From contig NZ_JYNS01000005.1 in NCBI RefSeq assembly GCF_000934725.1, positions 1-64,000 on the forward strand: a DNA stretch of 64,000 nucleotides. The letters are read 5' to 3'. The translations under genes and the position numbers were made by a program. Under the pieces are notes generated by a model that did not search any database, was not told the DNA's origin, and saw only the letters and a list, made by a program, of their open reading frames with translations. Positions 5,864 to 21,300 of this stretch are shown here, piece by piece. How positions within the stretch are numbered: the first letter of the stretch is position 1; each line of letters opens with the position of its first letter. The DNA comes from Methyloterricola oryzae (GTDB lineage: Bacteria; Pseudomonadota; Gammaproteobacteria; Methylococcales; Methylococcaceae).

Positions 5864-7458
5864 TCGTCTCTTTGGTAATGCTTGGCCCCGGTCTGCTCAT
5901 ACTGACCGGACTGCCGCCGTCCAACTGGGCGGACCGCCATCCACGCTTCATGGAGAAGGCCAGCAGCGTTGTCGCCAAGACCGCACTGCTGGGGGCCGTA
6001 ACGGGAAGCCTGCTTTACGCGGCCAGTTCCGAGGGCCCCATCGAGTTGGGCTGGGGGCCGATGGATCTTCATTTCGACGCGCTGACGGCGATCATGTTGC
6101 CCTTGGTCGGACTGATCGGAGCCGTGGTCGTCCGCTACTCGCGTAACTATCTCCGCGGGGACCCAGGCCAAGGTCATTTCTTCAAGTGGATGACGTTGAC
6201 CTTGGGCGCCGTGCTGGCGCTCATCGTGTCCGGAAATCTGCTCCTGCTGGCCGCCGCGTGGATCTGCACCAGCCTCGCGCTTCATCAACTGCTGGTGTTC
6301 TATCCGGAACGCAAGGGCGCGCAAGTCGCCGCGCGCAAGAAGTTCCTGGTCAGCCGCGCGGGTGATGCGTGTTTGCTGGTAGCCATCATCTTAATCTACG
6401 ACCTGTTCGGTACGCTGCGCTTGAGCGAAATCTTTACCGACAGTGCCATCCTCGCCGAGATGTACAGCCCGGGTGAACTGTACCTGCATTTTCCGCAAAT
6501 ATCCTGGATGGGTGGCTGCCTCGTGGCGGCAGCCCTTCTGAAATCCGCGCAATTCCCGTTTCACAGCTGGCTGCCCGAGGTGATGGAAACGCCCACCCCG
6601 GTGTCGGCCATGATGCATGCCGGGGTCATCAATGCCGGAGGTTTTCTGGTGGTGCGGATGAGCCCGCTCCTCGCCTTGGCGCCAGACGTGCTGAGCGTGC
6701 TGGCGCTGGTTGGGGCCGTCACCGCCTTGTTCGGCTCCATGGCCATGCTGACGCAGACCAGCATCAAGCGCTCGCTCGCCTTCTCCACCATCGGTCAGAT
6801 GGGGTTCATGATGCTGCAGTGCGGGTTGGGCGCGTTTTCCTCCGCAACCCTTCACATCGTCGCCCACGCGCTCTATAAGGCCCACGCCTTCCTCTCCAGC
6901 GGCAGCATCGTGGATATGGCAAGGGCCGCCTGGACGCCTCCGGCCCAAGCTGCGCGTCATCCGGCCCATCTATGTCTTGCGCTGTTGGCCGCCGCCGGTA
7001 TGACCTACCTCGTGGCTGGCTGGTTCGGATTCACGCTGGAAAGTCATCACGGCATTCTCGTGCTGGGCTTCATCTTGATGGCGGCCTTGACTTATCTGAT
7101 GTGGAGCTCGATGCAGGGTAGCCCTGGCTGGGCCTTGCTGGGGCGGGGCGTTGCGCTGGCATTCGTGGCCTGTGTGGGCTACTTCGCCATGCAGGCGGCA
7201 TTCGTGGTGACCTTGGATCAGGTGCTGCCGGTCGAGCCGAGCGAGATCAGTCCTTTTGAGGCGGTGCTGATGGCCAGCGTCGTGCTGCTGTTCATGGGCG
7301 TTCTCTTGTTGCAGGTGCGCTTCCCCGGAGTCCACGGGGACCGTGCCTGGCAGGCCGCCTATGTGCACTTATACAACGGCTTCTATATCAGCACTCTGGC
7401 AAACCGCTGCATCCGCAAGCTGTGGCCGCTGACTCTTGATCGCCAGACTAAACAGTAA
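5851..7458 (+). CDS. dabB: DAB inorganic carbon pump, membrane subunit DabB
   Basis: This 535-residue protein is an NuoL/MrpA-type proton-translocating membrane protein with about a dozen hydrophobic helices. Typical antiporter landmarks include SAQFPFHSWLPEVMETPTPVSAMMHAGVINAGGFLVVR, FSTIGQMGFMMLQCGLGAF and HIVAHALYKAHAFLSSG. Beside a DUF2309 protein it is the DabB partner, believed to couple cation flow to CO2 hydration by DabA at the inner membrane. The ATG at 5851 has AGGAGGTG six bases upstream and is preferred over the in-frame ATG at 5833, which lies within that ribosome binding site region. dabA follows 12 bases later. Confidence 0.92.
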   Translation: MDTLIVSLVMLGPGLLILTGLPPSNWADRHPRFMEKASSVVAKTALLGAVTGSLLYAASSEGPIELGWGPMDLHFDALTAIMLPLVGLIGAVVVRYSRNYLRGDPGQGHFFKWMTLTLGAVLALIVSGNLLLLAAAWICTSLALHQLLVFYPERKGAQVAARKKFLVSRAGDACLLVAIILIYDLFGTLRLSEIFTDSAILAEMYSPGELYLHFPQISWMGGCLVAAALLKSAQFPFHSWLPEVMETPTPVSAMMHAGVINAGGFLVVRMSPLLALAPDVLSVLALVGAVTALFGSMAMLTQTSIKRSLAFSTIGQMGFMMLQCGLGAFSSATLHIVAHALYKAHAFLSSGSIVDMARAAWTPPAQAARHPAHLCLALLAAAGMTYLVAGWFGFTLESHHGILVLGFILMAALTYLMWSSMQGSPGWALLGRGVALAFVACVGYFAMQAAFVVTLDQVLPVEPSEISPFEAVLMASVVLLFMGVLLLQVRFPGVHGDRAWQAAYVHLYNGFYISTLANRCIRKLWPLTLDRQTKQ

Positions 7459-7470
7459 GGAGGGAAAGTC

Positions 7471-10047
7471 GTGATAACTCCAGAGTATTTGACCAGTGAA
7501 CTGTCGGACCAGGCTGCCGGCCATTCATCCGACGCTTCCTTTCAATCCGCTGCGCGCACTGAACTGCTCCGGGCCGTTGATGAAGCGTGTTCCCGTATTC
7601 CCCCGCTGTGGCCGCTGCGCCGTTTCGTGGCGGTCAATCCCTTCGTCGGTCTGGGTGACTTTCACTTCGACAAGGCCTGCGCGCTCATCCGCAAGGTGGG
7701 TCGCGGCGAATTGCTGATGCCTGCCGGGTTTTACCTGGAGCAGGTCGAAGCAGGCCATGTCACGCCTGCCGATATCGAAAGGGCCATGCATCTAAGGAAT
7801 TCTGGCGAGCGCCCGGAATCGGCGTCGGAGCTTATCGATTTCCTGCGCAGGAGCGCCCATGCTTCGCCATCACCCGTCGCTGCCATCGAGACCCTTGCTG
7901 ACGCCATCGACCGGGAGCGTGGGAGCGAGTGGGCCGCCTTCGTGGTGGAGGAAATCTCCAAGTGGTGCGCGGCCTATTTCGACCAGGGGCAGTCCTCCTG
8001 GACCATGCCGTGGCGGCATTTGTCCTTGTACGCCGCCTGGAAGCGGGCCGCGGAGTTGGATTACAACCCTGAGGCAGCCGGCATACCCGGATTCCGCGCC
8101 GCCGTCGCAACACTGCCGGATGAGCCTTGGGAACTCATTGCGCTGGCGGTTGACGAGTTAGATTTCTCCGCCGGAGCCCGGACGGACTTCCTGCATCGGG
8201 AACTGGCCACCATCGGCGGATGGAGTGCTTATGCCCGCTTCCGCGTCTGGGAGTCGGATATGCGCGGAGAGCGGGACGACGCTCTCATTCACCTGCTGGC
8301 CATCCGGCTTGCCTGGGATGTCGCGCTCAATCGCGTCTTCCGTCCCAAGCTCACGGGCCGGACGTTCCAACCGGCACAGTGCGCGGCCGAAGGCAGCGAT
8401 CTGCGCATCCGCGTCCTGATGCAACTGGCTTATGAGCTGGCTGACCAGAGGCGCTTAATGCGGGTTCTCACCTCAGGTTCCGAAAACCATGCCGCCGCCA
8501 GCCCGGTGCCGGCGCCGCGCAAGGCCGCGCAGGCCGTGTTTTGCATCGACGTGCGCTCGGAAGTCTATCGCCGCGCTTTGGAGACCGTGAGCCGCCAGGT
8601 GGACACCATAGGCTTTGCAGGTTTCTTCGGCTTTCCCATCGAATACGTGCCCTTGGCCCATGAGCATGGCGAGGCTCACTGTCCGGTGTTGCTCTCGCCC
8701 GGCTACCGCGTGCGGGAGACACTGAAGGACGCGTCGGTGCACGAATTGCTTAAAGTGTATGACCGCCGCTGGCTGCACAAGCGCACCAGCGTGATCTGGA
8801 AGGCCTTCAAGCAATCCGCGGTCTCGTGTTTCTCCTATGTCGAGGTGAGTGGCCTGCTTTATGGGCTGAAACTCCTGACGGACAGCTTGGGACTGACGCG
8901 TCCGGTCCTTCATCCGGCCACCGCTGGCGTTTCGCCTCGCCACCAGGAGCGTATCGGCCCCACCGTCACCCGCCAGCGCGGGCGGCTGGTGCGGGGTGGC
9001 GCTGTCCGGGAGACTGGCATCGCTTTGAGCGAGCGAGTGAATCTGGCGCAGGCTGCCCTGAAAGGCATGGGTTTGACCTGTGATTTCGCCCGTCTGGTTC
9101 TGCTGTGCGGGCATGCCAGCCAAACGGTCAACAACCCCTATGGCTCGGCCCTGGACTGCGGGGCCTGTGGCGGACACTCCGGCGAGGCCAATGCGCGCAT
9201 CGCCGCCACCATACTCAACGACCGCGACGTGCGCGCCGCACTTGCCGCTCAGGGACTGCGCATACCGCGAGACACCTGGTTTGTCGCCGGCCTGCACGAC
9301 ACCACCACTGACGAGGTGCGACTGTTCGACCTGGAATCGGTCCCCCACGGACACGAGGCAGACGTGGCGCAACTTCAATCCTGGTTGAACCTGGCTTCAC
9401 GCCTGGCGCGTGGTGAAAGGGCTGATCTCCTGGGACTCGGTGACCTGTCATCGTTTGACTTAAGTCAGGCGGTCGAAGCGCGTTGCCGCGACTGGTCTCA
9501 AGTCCGCCCGGAGTGGGGACTGGCCGGCAATCGAGCCTTCATCGCCGCGCCGCGGGAACGTACGCGCAAGCTGGTGCTCAACGGACAGGCTTTCCTGCAT
9601 GAATACTCGCCCGAGAAAGATCCCGGGGGGGCGATTCTGGAACTGATCATGACCGCGCCGCTGGTGGTCGCCAGTTGGATCAACCTCCAGTACTACGCAT
9701 CCACGGTGGACAACCGCTTGTTCGGCAGCGGCAACAAGACACTGCACAACGTCGTTGCAACCTTGGGCGTTTTCGAAGGCAATGGCGGCGATCTCAGGAC
9801 TGGCCTGCCCTGGCAGTCGCTTCACGACGGAAGCCGTCTGGTCCATGAGCCCCTGCGTCTGAGCGCGATCATCGAAGCCGAGGAAGACGCCATCGAGCGG
9901 GTGATCGCCAAGCACGAATCCTTGCGTCAGCTCATCAATAACCAATGGCTGCATTTATTCCGGATCGTACCCGGCGGAGCGGATGTGTTTCGCCGTCGCG
10001 GTCCCGGCAACTGGGTCAAAGAAACCAACTGGAGGTTCGAGGCATGA
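7471..10047 (+). CDS. dabA: DAB inorganic carbon pump, zinc-dependent subunit DabA (DUF2309)
   Basis: This 858-residue protein is the cytoplasmic subunit of the DAB carbon accumulation complex. It resembles a beta-carbonic anhydrase and is thought to convert CO2 to bicarbonate in one direction when driven by DabB. The predicted zinc ligands are in place: Cys358 and Asp360 in AVFCIDVRSE, His548 in LLCGHAS and Cys563 in ALDCGACGGHSG. The 15-residue spacing between the last two matches characterised DabA. It starts at GTG 7471 after AAGGAGG. The stop overlaps the cysD start (ATGA), which ties carbon uptake and sulfate activation into one transcript. Confidence 0.93.
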   Translation: MITPEYLTSELSDQAAGHSSDASFQSAARTELLRAVDEACSRIPPLWPLRRFVAVNPFVGLGDFHFDKACALIRKVGRGELLMPAGFYLEQVEAGHVTPADIERAMHLRNSGERPESASELIDFLRRSAHASPSPVAAIETLADAIDRERGSEWAAFVVEEISKWCAAYFDQGQSSWTMPWRHLSLYAAWKRAAELDYNPEAAGIPGFRAAVATLPDEPWELIALAVDELDFSAGARTDFLHRELATIGGWSAYARFRVWESDMRGERDDALIHLLAIRLAWDVALNRVFRPKLTGRTFQPAQCAAEGSDLRIRVLMQLAYELADQRRLMRVLTSGSENHAAASPVPAPRKAAQAVFCIDVRSEVYRRALETVSRQVDTIGFAGFFGFPIEYVPLAHEHGEAHCPVLLSPGYRVRETLKDASVHELLKVYDRRWLHKRTSVIWKAFKQSAVSCFSYVEVSGLLYGLKLLTDSLGLTRPVLHPATAGVSPRHQERIGPTVTRQRGRLVRGGAVRETGIALSERVNLAQAALKGMGLTCDFARLVLLCGHASQTVNNPYGSALDCGACGGHSGEANARIAATILNDRDVRAALAAQGLRIPRDTWFVAGLHDTTTDEVRLFDLESVPHGHEADVAQLQSWLNLASRLARGERADLLGLGDLSSFDLSQAVEARCRDWSQVRPEWGLAGNRAFIAAPRERTRKLVLNGQAFLHEYSPEKDPGGAILELIMTAPLVVASWINLQYYASTVDNRLFGSGNKTLHNVVATLGVFEGNGGDLRTGLPWQSLHDGSRLVHEPLRLSAIIEAEEDAIERVIAKHESLRQLINNQWLHLFRIVPGGADVFRRRGPGNWVKETNWRFEA

Positions 10048-16041: not shown

Positions 16042-16773
16042 ATGGAAATTTATGAATTTCAAGACAGCTTGGGGGGGCTAGCCACGGCGGGAACACTGGA
16101 TGAGATTACCGATCGGGTTCGCACGTACGTTGGACAACTGGGATTTGAGTATTTTATTTACGTCTTGCGCCTGCCAACCCGATTCGCCGAAGCCAGGGTC
16201 ATCATGATTAACGGCTACCCGGAAGCCTGGCTGGAGCGTTATTGGGAGGCAAGTCACTACACTCACGATCCAGTAATCGCCCATTGCGCGCAACGTCTGG
16301 TTCCAGTCATCTGGCATGAGCTGCCCTCAGAAGGCCTCAGCAGGCAGGTCATGAATGAAGCCACCGAGTTCGGCTTGCGGTATGGCCTGAGCATGCCCAT
16401 TCACGGCCCCAATGGTGATCTGGGAATCCTGAGCCTTGCGGTGGACCGGAAATTGGCGGCGGCACAGGAGATTTCGAGACGCGCCTTGCCCTACGTACAG
16501 ATACTGGCCGTACATATTCATGAGGCAGTGCGGCGCGTCACTATTCAGGTCGGGGAAACGGCACCGATCCTGCTCACCGAGCGGGAACAAGATTGCATGC
16601 GCTGGGTGGCGGATGGCAAGACATCTTGGGAGATATCGCAGGTGCTCCACATGTCGGAGCGTACCGTCAACTTTCACATCAATAACGTCATGATCAAGCT
16701 CGATGTCCGTAACCGGCAGCACGCAATAGCCCGTGCAGTGTTGCAGGGCTTGATCAATCCGCGCCCCTTCTAG
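16042..16773 (+). CDS. LuxR family quorum-sensing regulator (solo)
   Basis: This 243-residue protein has an N-terminal acyl-homoserine-lactone binding domain and a C-terminal helix-turn-helix. The ligand-pocket pattern appears as WLERYWEASHYTHDPV and later VIWHE and GLSMPIHGPNGDLG. The DNA-binding part is LTEREQDCMRWVADGKTSWEISQVLHMSERTVNFHINNVM. ATG at 16042 is preferred to TTG at 16039. No luxI-type synthase lies in the window, so it is a solo here. A perfect CT-N12-AG dyad lies 170 bases downstream of its stop, before a secreted protein gene. Confidence 0.88.
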   Translation: MEIYEFQDSLGGLATAGTLDEITDRVRTYVGQLGFEYFIYVLRLPTRFAEARVIMINGYPEAWLERYWEASHYTHDPVIAHCAQRLVPVIWHELPSEGLSRQVMNEATEFGLRYGLSMPIHGPNGDLGILSLAVDRKLAAAQEISRRALPYVQILAVHIHEAVRRVTIQVGETAPILLTEREQDCMRWVADGKTSWEISQVLHMSERTVNFHINNVMIKLDVRNRQHAIARAVLQGLINPRPF

Positions 16774-17201
16774 TTTCGGTATGAAGCAATCCAGCCGGGA
16801 CTGCTTCGCACCGCCTATCACAACACGTGTCCCGCGGCGGTCGGCATAGTTTCCCGTCTGTAGAAAACGATTGGGGCAGCGTCAGTGTCCACGGAAAGTG
16901 CTGAAGGATTATGCTGACCTGTTACACGTCCGGATGAAGTTGCTGTCAGATTTGACAGGTTTCCGGGCTTAGCGATTTCCCCTTAAATTGAGCGACAGAA
17001 AAGATTCCACATCTGTCTCACGCCGTTACTGCTCGTCGTGCCTTGATGAGCGCTTCAGTCACACGTAGACGGAGCAGGAACGTCGCGAAGCGTCGGATGG
17101 ACCCAGAGCAAGACGGCAACAGCCGGCCGCTTGACCGGGGTCTAAAGAAGCAGGCCCGCCAAGTTCAGTCAATTCCAATTTCATCGTTTTCTGGAGGATC
17201 A
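16774..17201. other. Intergenic region holding a lux-type box
   Basis: This 428-base gap lies between luxR and the Calx-beta gene. It contains the dyad described at 16941-16960. A frame open from 17043 runs into the Calx-beta gene but lacks a ribosome binding site. No terminator was seen after luxR. Confidence 0.5.
16941..16960 (+). promoter_or_regulatory. lux/las-type box (LuxR family operator)
   Basis: TGCTGTCAGATTTGACAGGT contains the perfect dyad CTGTCA-GATT-TGACAG and fits the CT-N12-AG rule of LuxR-family operators. It overlaps a TTGACA hexamer that could be a -35 element, though no good -10 was found at the right distance. It lies downstream of a LuxR-type gene and 241 bases before a secreted protein start. 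Binding by that LuxR is an inference. Confidence 0.6.
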
Positions 17202-17984
17202 ATGCAAATTGTGTCGCACAAGTCATCCTGGCTGCTGACTGTTGCACTTTGGCTGGTCAGTTCTTGGGCCATCGCCTTGGATTCAGATGGCAAGGGCAAC
17301 TGGACCGCGATACAGGTCGATCGCTATACAGCCAACGGCAACAAGTTCGGAGATAACCTATTGGGCGTCAAGCGGGAAACTGGCGACTTGTACAAGGACG
17401 GCACGTTTTTGCCATTTTCCGTGCTGGAATCGACACAGATCCGGGTGGATGAGGCAACGTTGAACGCTTTCAGCGGGCGTTTCGTCATGTCGTTGGCTAT
17501 ATGGACAAATTTCGATGGCGCCCAGAAGCCACTGGGCAACAACAATGCCATGCGGTATTTCCCTCGCTCGGCAGAGACCTACTCCATCGATAGTGTGCCT
17601 TATGTCATCGTGACACCCGGAGGAGGCGAGAACCCGCCGAGTGCTGGAAAGCCCACGGTCACGTTGAGCGTGGTTCAAGCCGCAGTCTCGGAAACCGGCC
17701 CCAGCGCCGGACGTTTCCTGGTCGCGCTGGACTCTGCCAGGGGCAAAGATGTTAAGGTGCCTTACGCCATTTCCGGTAAGGCCAAGAACGGCAAGGACTA
17801 CACCAAGATTGCCAAGTATGTATTAATTCCAGCCGGGAATGTCTCTGCGTTTTTAGACATTATCCCAATCGACGACAACATTCAGGAAAACGCCGAATCT
17901 GTGAAACTCAAATTGCAGAAGCGGCCTTCATACAAGCTGGGCGGCGCCAAATCGGCAACCGTTGAGATACTGGACAACGATTGA
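17202..17984 (+). CDS. Secreted protein with a Calx-beta domain
   Basis: This 260-residue protein starts at an ATG preceded by GGAGGA, with a signal peptide (SSWLLTVALWLVSSWAIALD, cleavage near residue 26). A first domain of about 130 residues is not recognised. The C-terminal 100 residues form a Calx-beta repeat (PTVTLSVVQAAVSETGPSAGRFLVALD, then IDDNIQENAESVKLKL and VEILDND), a fold of extracellular calcium-binding and adhesion proteins. There is no PEP-CTERM or LPXTG anchor. Its position after a LuxR gene and a lux-type box suggests density-dependent expression. Confidence 0.75.
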   Translation: MQIVSHKSSWLLTVALWLVSSWAIALDSDGKGNWTAIQVDRYTANGNKFGDNLLGVKRETGDLYKDGTFLPFSVLESTQIRVDEATLNAFSGRFVMSLAIWTNFDGAQKPLGNNNAMRYFPRSAETYSIDSVPYVIVTPGGGENPPSAGKPTVTLSVVQAAVSETGPSAGRFLVALDSARGKDVKVPYAISGKAKNGKDYTKIAKYVLIPAGNVSAFLDIIPIDDNIQENAESVKLKLQKRPSYKLGGAKSATVEILDND

Positions 17985-18470: not shown

Positions 18471-18725
18471 ATGACATTCGAAGAACGTGGGAATTATTGG
18501 GAGCGGCGCTTGGCCGAGCAGTCGGTCAGTGGATTGTCGGCGCGGGCCTGGTGCCGGCATGCGGGGGGTGGCGTATGGGACGTTCAGCTATTGGCGTCGT
18601 CGCGTACAGAGCGAGTCGCCATTGGCTTTGTTGACGTTGATTCCGGTCGTTGACGAGGCACCTGAACCAGTCGGGCTGCGGATCGTGGTGCGCGGTGCCA
18701 GCATCGCAGTGGCGCAAGACTTCGA
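18471..18725 (+). pseudogene. tnpA: IS66 TnpA, N-terminal part with frameshift
   Basis: Starting at ATG 18471 after GGAGGA, the frame reads like an IS66 OrfA accessory protein (YWERRLAEQSVSGLSARAWCRHAG). A single-base insertion in the G run near 18565 shifts the frame, after which VAYGTFSYWRRRVQSE and VVRGASIAVAQDFD continue the family pattern. The coding stops making sense at the TTCGA at 18721-18725, and its missing C-terminus (FDSELLRRVVAALSTC) is found on the opposite strand at about 18943-18988. Confidence 0.7.
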
Positions 18726-18993
18726 CCCTTCTCCAGACGCTTGCAAGCCAGCCAGAAGCCATGCCGGTCCCACCACAGCAGCTTCACTTTGCCCCGACCG
18801 CGATTGAAAAACACATAGACCGATCCCGACAACGGCGAAGCCCCCAGGCTGGTTGCCACCGCCAGCGCCAGCCCATCGATCGACTTGCGCAAGTCCACCG
18901 ACTCCGCCACCACGTACACCGCGCTCGCACCCAACAGCGTCGTCAACACGTCGACAACGCCGCGACGACCCGACGCAGCAGTTCGCTATCGAA
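18721..18993 (-). repeat. Inverted internal segment of the IS66 copy
   Basis: This block of about 265 bases reads on the minus strand as the end of tnpA followed by the first part of tnpB, while tnpA start, tnpB end and tnpC all read on the plus strand. The edges are TTCGA (18721-18725) and its inverse TCGAA (18989-18993). Turning the block round restores AQDF-DSELLRR in tnpA and KRLEKGR-IRRPPT in tnpB without losing a base, which is strong evidence for a simple inversion. Confidence 0.75.
18726..18949 (-). pseudogene. tnpB: IS66 TnpB, N-terminal part (inverted)
   Basis: On the minus strand this reads LTTLLGASAVYVVAESVDLRKSIDGLALAV, then GSVYVFFNRGRGKVKLLWWDRHGFWLACKRLEKGR, the conserved core of the IS66 OrfB accessory protein. 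It is cut after LEKGR at the inversion edge. The remaining C-terminus lies on the plus strand from about 18994 to 19104. Confidence 0.75.
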
Positions 18994-19104
18994 TTCGCCG
19001 ACCGCCGACGGCGTCAATTTCGCGTTCGGAACTGCTGTTGTTGCTGGAGGGGTGGATCTGTCGGTGCGGCGTCTTCGTGAGGTTCGGGCGGGGCGGGTGA
19101 GCTG
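18994..19104 (+). pseudogene. tnpB: IS66 TnpB, C-terminal part with frameshift
   Basis: The plus strand reads RPPTASISRSELLLLLEG, the typical end of IS66 TnpB, then an extra G shifts the frame and VDLSVRRLREVRAGRVS runs to a TGA at 19102-19104. This is directly before the tnpC start, the normal tnpB-tnpC junction. Confidence 0.65.
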
Positions 19105-20180
19105 ATGGAATGGCTTGCCAAGCCGCATGAAACAAGGGACTTGGTGGTTTTCGGCGGGTGTCATAGGGCCATGAATGCAGATGCCCTCGCCGAAGAAATT
19201 ACGACCCTGAAAGCCGCTTTGGCGGAGCGTGACGGCCGCATCGAATACTTGGAATTCGAGATGGCGAATCTCAAGCAGCTGATCTTCGGTGCCCGCTCGG
19301 AACGCTTGCAGACCCTGCCTGATCCCGCGCAAATGCCTCTCTGGGATGAACAGCCGGAAGACATCCCGCTCGCCAGCCCGGTGGAGTTCAAGACGGTGGT
19401 GAAATCCCCGGCCAAAGGGCAACCCAAGCGCGTCGTCTTGCCGGAACATCTGCCGCGAGAGATCGTGGTGCTGCCCCTCTCGGCCGAGGAACGGGCTTGC
19501 CCGGAATGCGGCGAAGAGCGGCCCGTCATCGGCTATGAGAGCTCCGAACGGCTGGACTAAGTGCCCGCACAGCTCAAGGTGGTCGAGACGCGCTGCGAGA
19601 AGTGCGCCTGCACCAAGTGCCAAGGACCGTTGGCTACTGCGCCGGCGCCGGCACAGGTGAGCGAACAGGGTATCCCACTGCCGGGGCTGTTGGCGTATGT
19701 GCTGATGGCCAAGTTCGGCTATCAACTGCCCTTGTACCACATCGAGCAAGTCTTCACCCACTAGGGTGTTCCCATCGCCCGCACCAGCCTGTGCGACTGG
19801 GTGCTGCAATGCGGCGTGGCCCTCAAGCCGCTGAGCGACCGGCTGCTGGTGTTGCTCAAGCGGCAGGCGGTGATTTTCTCCGACGACACCACTGTGGCGG
19901 TTCAAGACTGGGGCAAGACCTGCGAGACACGGTTCTGGGTCTATGCCGGTCACTCCTCGCCGATCATAGTCTACGACCACACCGAGACGCGGGCGGGCAA
20001 GCACCCCAAGGGCAGGCTGGAGGACTACAGCGGCTACCTGCAGGCGGACGCCTATGCGGGCTTATGACCAGGTCTTCGCCGATGGCAAGATCGTCAAAGT
20101 GGCCTGCTGGGCGCATGCACGTAGGAAATTCTTTGAGATTGCCCGACAGGCCGAGCAGGGTTCGCTGTGGTACCTTTAGC
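19105..20180 (+). pseudogene. tnpC: IS66 transposase TnpC, degenerate and truncated
   Basis: The frame starts like an IS66 transposase (a coiled coil, then FGARSERLQTL and a CPECGEERP zinc motif). It is broken by a TAA at 19558-19560, a TAG at 19762-19764 (probably from CAG) and a one-base insertion near 20062. The first two catalytic acidic residues are visible in FSDDTTV and LQADAYAG. The gene ends abruptly at about 20180, before the third catalytic residue. A hairpin (CTTTAGC at 20174-20180, GCTAAAG at 20191-20197) marks the junction with the next gene. Confidence 0.85.
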
Positions 20181-20191
20181 ATCCTCTCCGG

Positions 20192-20560
20192 CTAAAGTAA
20201 AAGCCAGAAATTTTCCTGGATCACAATCGCCTGGTTGTGCTCCTCATCCTTAGCGCCGTAGACGAGCGTAACCATACCTTTTTGCAGTTCTTCCTTTAAG
20301 AGCCGTATCTGCTGGTGGTTGCCCCTGAGTTCCGCGAGATAACGATCCTTGAAGTCTTCCCATCTTTCAGGGTCGTGGTCAAACCATTTCCGGAGCTCCG
20401 TGCTGGGGGCAATATCTTTAAGCCATAGATCGATGCGTGCTTTTTCCTTCGTCAAACCGCGAGGCCAGACTCTGTCGACGAGAATGCGCCGACCGTCAGA
20501 TCGATCCGGCAAGTCGTATACCCGTTTAATCTTGAAAATATGGCGCACTGACGGTTGCAT
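20192..20560 (-). CDS. DUF488 family protein
   Basis: This 122-residue protein has the complete DUF488 pattern: IKRVYDLPDRSDGRRILVDRVWPRGLTKEKARIDLWLKDIAPST, then LRKWFDHDPERWEDFKDRY and VTLVYGAKDEEHNQAIVI. The function is unknown, although nitrite- and stress-related contexts are common. The last residues (QENFWLLL) differ from the usual ending and lie at the junction with the truncated transposase, so the C-terminus may have been replaced. The start overlaps the 3' end of the nitric oxide reductase fragment by about 35 bases on the same strand. Confidence 0.8.
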   Translation of the reverse strand: MQPSVRHIFKIKRVYDLPDRSDGRRILVDRVWPRGLTKEKARIDLWLKDIAPSTELRKWFDHDPERWEDFKDRYLAELRGNHQQIRLLKEELQKGMVTLVYGAKDEEHNQAIVIQENFWLLL

Positions 20561-20994: not shown

Positions 20995-21300
20995 GTGCTC
21001 CGCCAAACGGTTACTGTGTTTTGTGATTCGGAGGGTAACCGGATTCAGTCTATCAAGCGGAGTTTTGGAACCGTTTGTAGTCGCGCAGGCATCGAAGATT
21101 TTCATATCCACGATCTTCGGCGTGCGTGCGCCGCTTGGTTGGTTCAGGCCGGAGTGCCACTAATTCAGGTCCGGGACCTTTTGCGTCATAGCACCGTCGA
21201 GATGACGGAGCGCTACGCACACTTGTCGCCTGATAATGTGCGTACTGCTGTGGCTGCTTTAAATGGGTTGTCACGCTCTGGTCACGCCACATTTGGATAA
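20995..21300 (+). pseudogene. Tyrosine recombinase/integrase, C-terminal remnant
   Basis: The 101-residue frame carries the C-terminal catalytic half of a phage-type integrase: HDLRRACAAWLVQAGVPLIQVRDLLRHSTVEMTERYAHLSPD with the HxxR, the second histidine and the nucleophilic tyrosine. The N-terminal domain and the first catalytic arginine are absent. It ends 36 bases from the 3' end of tRNA-Val, the classic position of an integrase beside its attachment site, which marks this as the edge of an old island. Confidence 0.8.

Follow-up and report, generated by a model that had tools for sequence, protein, structure and literature searches.

The described LuxR solos that regulate an adjacent gene or operon include QscR of Pseudomonas aeruginosa and OryR and XccR of Xanthomonas, the latter two acting on pip (PMC4338825, PMC10134790), and among methanotrophs the Methylomonas solo MmsR senses the acyl-homoserine lactones (AHLs) of other methanotrophs (PMC10134790). 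Here we describe a LuxR solo, a lux/las-type box and a gene for a predicted secreted Calx-beta protein that lie one behind the other in a 64,000-nucleotide stretch of the Methyloterricola oryzae genome, hereafter the window. The unit shares with QscR and with OryR/XccR the pairing of a solo with presumptive control of an adjacent gene, but QscR acts beside resident LuxI/R systems and OryR/XccR answer plant signals, whereas the window unit combines a genome lacking luxI, an AHL-type pocket, a predicted exported-protein target and a promoter that probably descends from that of a luxI gene. MmsR is likewise a LuxR solo of the Methylococcales, and a CTGTCA-N4-TGACAG-type box is found in its orthologues, which are presumed as such from an FMN-reductase neighbour (compare PMC10134790). 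However, we rejected an assignment of the window LuxR to the MmsR type, as the two belong to separate clades (25–34% identity) and the MmsR-type box stands about 100 bp upstream of luxR, whereas the window box lies downstream of luxR and before the exoprotein gene. Canonical gammaproteobacterial luxR-box-luxI tandems (G608, G381 and G589) have the same box position after luxR, the same -10 offset and a LuxR of the sister clade, but carry luxI where the window has the gene for an exported protein. In the literature, mostly that accessible without subscription, we found no report of a LuxR solo whose target is a PEP-CTERM or Calx-beta protein and no solo described as keeping a luxI promoter. We regard the window locus as a real, conserved and functional-looking unit that represents a new subgroup of LuxR solos, and on comparative sequence evidence we consider it likely to be an AHL-responsive switch with a single target, in which one operator would serve one adjacent exoprotein gene.

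The LuxR regulator and its host genome

The regulator (Table 1) consists of an N-terminal AHL-binding domain (Autoind_bind) and a C-terminal LuxR HTH, as in the quorum-sensing LuxR family, and is the sole PF03472 protein of its genome. Its best sequence matches in the PDB are RhlR and LasR (E about 1e-37). The AHL-pocket residues Y59, W63, Y67, D76, P77, W91, G115 and S131 are invariant in six orthologues; among them, Y59, W63, Y67, D76, W91 and S131 correspond to the LasR contacts Y56, W60, Y64, D73, W88 and S129. By equivalences assigned by eye, TraR W57, Y61, D70, P71, W85, G113, E178 and G188 correspond to W63, Y67, D76, P77, W91, G115, E182 and G192, which are also invariant in the six orthologues, and the L182 position of the TraR comparison is M in the window LuxR.

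Table 1. Features of the luxR-box-Calx-beta unit and the evidence for each (positions in the window).
Feature	Position	Strand	Evidence
LuxR-type regulator (solo), 243 aa, intact, LasR/RhlR-like	16042..16773	+	PF03472 E 1.1e-37; PF00196 (GerE, LuxR HTH) E 1.3e-20
lux/las-type box, proposed single operator	16943..16958	+	unique perfect copy; conservation in five orthologous loci; luxI-box position in sister clade
-10-like hexamer TTAAAT	16983..16988	+	25 bp after box; 4/6 matches (weak)
Predicted leader, between the inferred start site and the ATG	16994..17201	+	nothing matched in Rfam; structure not above chance level
Calx-beta protein, 260 aa, proposed target	17202..17984	+	PF03160 E 5.4e-9

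Because the residues that contact the ligand in LasR are invariant in all six orthologues, an AHL appears to be the likeliest ligand. The LuxR might instead bind the box and control the Calx-beta gene with a non-AHL ligand or none, and several LuxR solos do answer plant signals or act independently of a ligand (PMC10134790). The groups of solos listed as such are often substituted at the AHL-contact positions (PMC4338825), whereas these positions are invariant here, and we think this alternative unlikely.

Three matches to the AMO/pmoA family in the 4.9 Mb genome, a draft of 73 contigs with an estimated completeness of 100%, identify the host as a methanotroph. The original prediction had described a LuxR without a nearby luxI and proposed a genome-wide search for one. 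Run with the PF00765 profile over the whole draft, this search found no real luxI; its one weak match (24.6 bits) was rejected because it is an OlsB-like ornithine acyltransferase, and the regulator is therefore a solo with respect to the whole genome. As the genome carries no luxI, other bacteria are the most likely makers of the signal, which is probably an AHL. The term “quorum-responsive”, used when the locus was first noticed, has to be narrowed to a response that most likely concerns the signals of others.

The box and its promoter geometry

The original prediction of a box at 16941-16960 with a 6+6 dyad and a 4-base centre proved accurate. The dyad is perfect (CTGTCA-GATT-TGACAG) and occupies the 16-bp core CTGTCAGATTTGACAG (16943-16958), with the outer two bases on each side of the 20-bp frame TGCTGTCAGATTTGACAGGT unpaired. 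The site has the characteristics of a lux/las box, namely a 20-bp dyad with a CT-N12-AG core adjoining the promoter of a LuxR target, and we predict that it is bound by LuxR as an operator. As stand-alone evidence the CT-N12-AG pattern was dropped, since its count in the 64-kb window is uninformative and not enriched (176 against 195.5 ± 14 expected). The window holds two perfect 6+6 dyads with CT..AG ends, where about 0.95 would be expected, and CTGTCA-N4-TGACAG is expected only 0.01 times per 64 kb. The proposed search for further copies returned no second perfect one, and the window box is unique as such in the 4.9 Mb genome. Its centre lies 178 bp 3′ of the luxR stop codon and the box lies 243 bp 5′ of the Calx-beta ATG. 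Autoregulation of luxR through the box was discarded because the box is downstream of luxR.

A -10-like hexamer 24–25 bp after the box is common to the window and its five orthologous loci (mean 4.5/6 matches). Signals of this kind arose in 0/3000 and 1/3000 shuffles in two runs, softening to 18/3000 when one sequence per genus was used. On the luxR-facing side of the box no -10 was found (the best is 3.5/6 at +26, 423/3000 shuffles), and a promoter running from the box towards luxR was rejected on these figures. At luxR-box-luxI loci, a -10-like hexamer peaks at the same offset from the box. The centre of the box would thus lie near -43 on the side of the exported-protein gene, near -43 being the classical position of a LuxR activator at lux promoters.

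Orthologous loci in Methylococcales

The arrangement of a LuxR, a box and a secreted-protein gene, as first proposed, is real, and it is also kept at orthologous loci of other methanotrophs. Querying 301 genomes of the order with the 189-aa N-terminal part of the window LuxR yielded five intact orthologues (in G077, G256, G121, G223 and G106, the last being Methylococcaceae UBA7658), which are 46–54% identical over this query and 49–59% identical in longer comparisons; no further members turned up among all 237 genomes of the family to which G077 belongs. No credible luxI was found in the genomes of the orthologues, extra weak matches being judged by score. The box, with at most one mismatch, lies 17–32 bp after the luxR stop codon in 5/5 orthologous loci, where about 7e-4 boxes are expected by chance per 300 bp, and in genomes with this LuxR, boxes with up to one mismatch from CTGTCARWYYTGACAG occur essentially only at luxR. 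The sequence around the box is otherwise unalike across genera, and the distance from the box to the next ATG is about 60–380 bp in the relatives; the window box is farther from its luxR than theirs.

The next gene after the box is predicted to encode an exported protein in 6/6 loci, as judged from signal sequences or lipoboxes read by eye; several matches to sorting tails score under the curated threshold and were retained for their motif and position. In G077 (L084) the first protein after the box has 188 aa and a PEP-CTERM-like tail, and a HAF-repeat protein of VPLPA type and lipoproteins come next. In G256 (L085) the box is followed by an Lcl_C PEP-CTERM protein and the same HAF protein as in G077. 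G121 has an Lcl_C protein ending in VPLPSAAWLF and then a lipoprotein, G223 a 186-aa VPLPA-CTERM protein and then a PEP-CTERM protein, and G106 a lipoprotein followed by a PPC/RTX calcium-repeat protein. These protein types fit a role of the exported products in adhesion or in the matrix, which they may have. At a further locus of this clade, in G186, luxR is a pseudogene broken by stop codons (L089, 5398-6353), and we found neither a box nor an exported gene following on the luxR strand.

Between G077 and G256, which belong to the same genus, the DNA is 92% identical from luxR via the box to about +36, whereas the body of the first gene is unrelated over several hundred bases; identity returns to 91% over the 94 bp surrounding the PEP-CTERM tail and is 86% in the next gene. 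The first gene of G077 matches that of G223 (69%) and the first gene of G256 that of G121 (48%), whereas in the LuxR tree G077 groups with G256 and G121 with G223, so that gene types cross the LuxR tree. It is possible that a cassette was exchanged here, flanked by the conserved promoter on one side and the conserved PEP-CTERM tail on the other, an exchange of the gene body that needs confirmation because the G256 assembly is fragmented and 75% complete. More generally, though we hold this to be doubtful, the former luxI promoter could be an exchangeable slot at which receptor and promoter are fixed and the exported protein is swapped as a cassette, so that a common signal would bring out different surface proteins in different eavesdroppers.

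The Calx-beta gene and its surroundings

The proposed target was described from the outset as a gene for a secreted, calcium-fold protein, and its product does carry a C-terminal Calx-beta domain, preceded by an N-terminal region of about 110 aa and, at the very N-terminus, by a signal-peptide-like segment identified by eye. GGAGGA precedes the ATG. The protein gave no match to a PEP-CTERM/VPLPA sorting tail and is not classed as a PEP-CTERM/exosortase surface protein. Homologues occur in G037 (57%), G115, G195 and G199, none of which has a box within two mismatches at comparable placement upstream. A paralogue elsewhere in the same genome (G000:C21:33615-34184, minus strand, L129) is also without a box. 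A structured or Rfam-type RNA leader was considered and rejected (structure z -0.8; Table 1). Directly behind the Calx-beta gene, at 18587-20195 and 20995-21297, lie IS66 remnants (TnpB on the minus strand and an N-terminal part of the transposase on the plus strand) and a C-terminal fragment of a tyrosine recombinase.

Relation to luxR-box-luxI loci

A class-wide LuxR search added one close member from outside the Methylococcales (G428), together with a broader group of LuxRs about 40% identical. The G428 LuxR is 65% identical to that of G256; its box is on the upstream side of luxR, ahead of a divergent gene for a predicted secreted protein, and an OmpA-family gene follows luxR. Eight loci of the broader group, spread over seven families, carry luxI downstream of luxR and on its strand (confirmed as Autoind_synth in six and by tblastn in the others). 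The box lies between luxR and luxI in seven of these eight, 32–102 bp after the luxR stop codon and directly followed by luxI, and in the eighth (G636) it is found shortly ahead of luxI, and another gene intervenes.

In the LuxR tree, the seven solos (six Methylococcales loci and G428) form one clade (SH-aLRT 99) that is sister (SH-aLRT 92) to a clade with luxR-box-luxI loci. Other Methylococcales LuxRs, including the presumed MmsR orthologues, fall in a separate clade, most with the box upstream of luxR. Since the box occupies the position of the luxI promoter in the sister clade, with the same promoter geometry, the simplest reading would be that an ancestral luxI was lost, that its promoter was retained and that an exported-protein gene moved into its place. 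The tree was built quickly, is incompletely resolved and has long branches, and its outgroup does not hold together, for which reason it can only suggest the direction of change, and the order of events may have been the reverse.

Two other arrangements were seen alongside these loci. G540 (L166) has two luxI-like genes in tandem behind a luxR box (7179-7742 and 7970-8974), and G526 and G301 (L172 and L175) have another type of LuxR solo, with a box CTATCATTTTTGATAG over the luxR stop codon followed by genes that we named by eye as pirin-like, isochorismatase-like and amidohydrolase-like.

Discussion

We propose that an AHL from neighbouring bacteria probably activates the window LuxR, which would then bind the box and activate transcription of the adjacent Calx-beta gene. 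Several observations weigh against this proposal: the window box stands farther from its luxR stop codon than the boxes of the relatives (178 bp, compared with 17–32 bp) and 243 bp from the ATG, where theirs stand at about 60–380 bp; the -10 is weak, and its statistical support softens with one sequence per genus; the genome is a draft; and the box of G428 lies on the other side of luxR. The same position that relates the box to the luxI promoters of the sister clade would also be expected if it were a remnant, retained by descent, of the promoter of a lost luxI, with the Calx-beta gene there by chance and outside LuxR control. The absence of such a box upstream of Calx-beta homologues elsewhere, the long distance from box to gene and the IS66 remnants next door agree with this. 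A relic, however, would be expected to decay, whereas box and -10 are kept across genera despite unalike intervening sequence; a predicted exported-protein gene comes next in every locus, and in G186 the decay of luxR coincides with loss of both the box and the exported gene. We judge a relic improbable on these grounds. A chance dyad in an intergenic gap, which the commonness of palindromes and the unenriched CT-N12-AG pattern might suggest, is hardly credible, being already refuted by five orthologous loci that have the box in the same position and by its uniqueness in the genome.

A LuxR solo that would act as an AHL-responsive switch on one exoprotein gene, as we favour, may offer a test bed with one regulator, one operator and one target for eavesdropping among methane-oxidising bacteria. 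It would also connect the sensing of AHLs with exported proteins, those of PEP-CTERM type among them, and it suggests a possible route by which LuxR solos arise, in which luxI is lost, its promoter is kept and a new gene comes to lie behind it.
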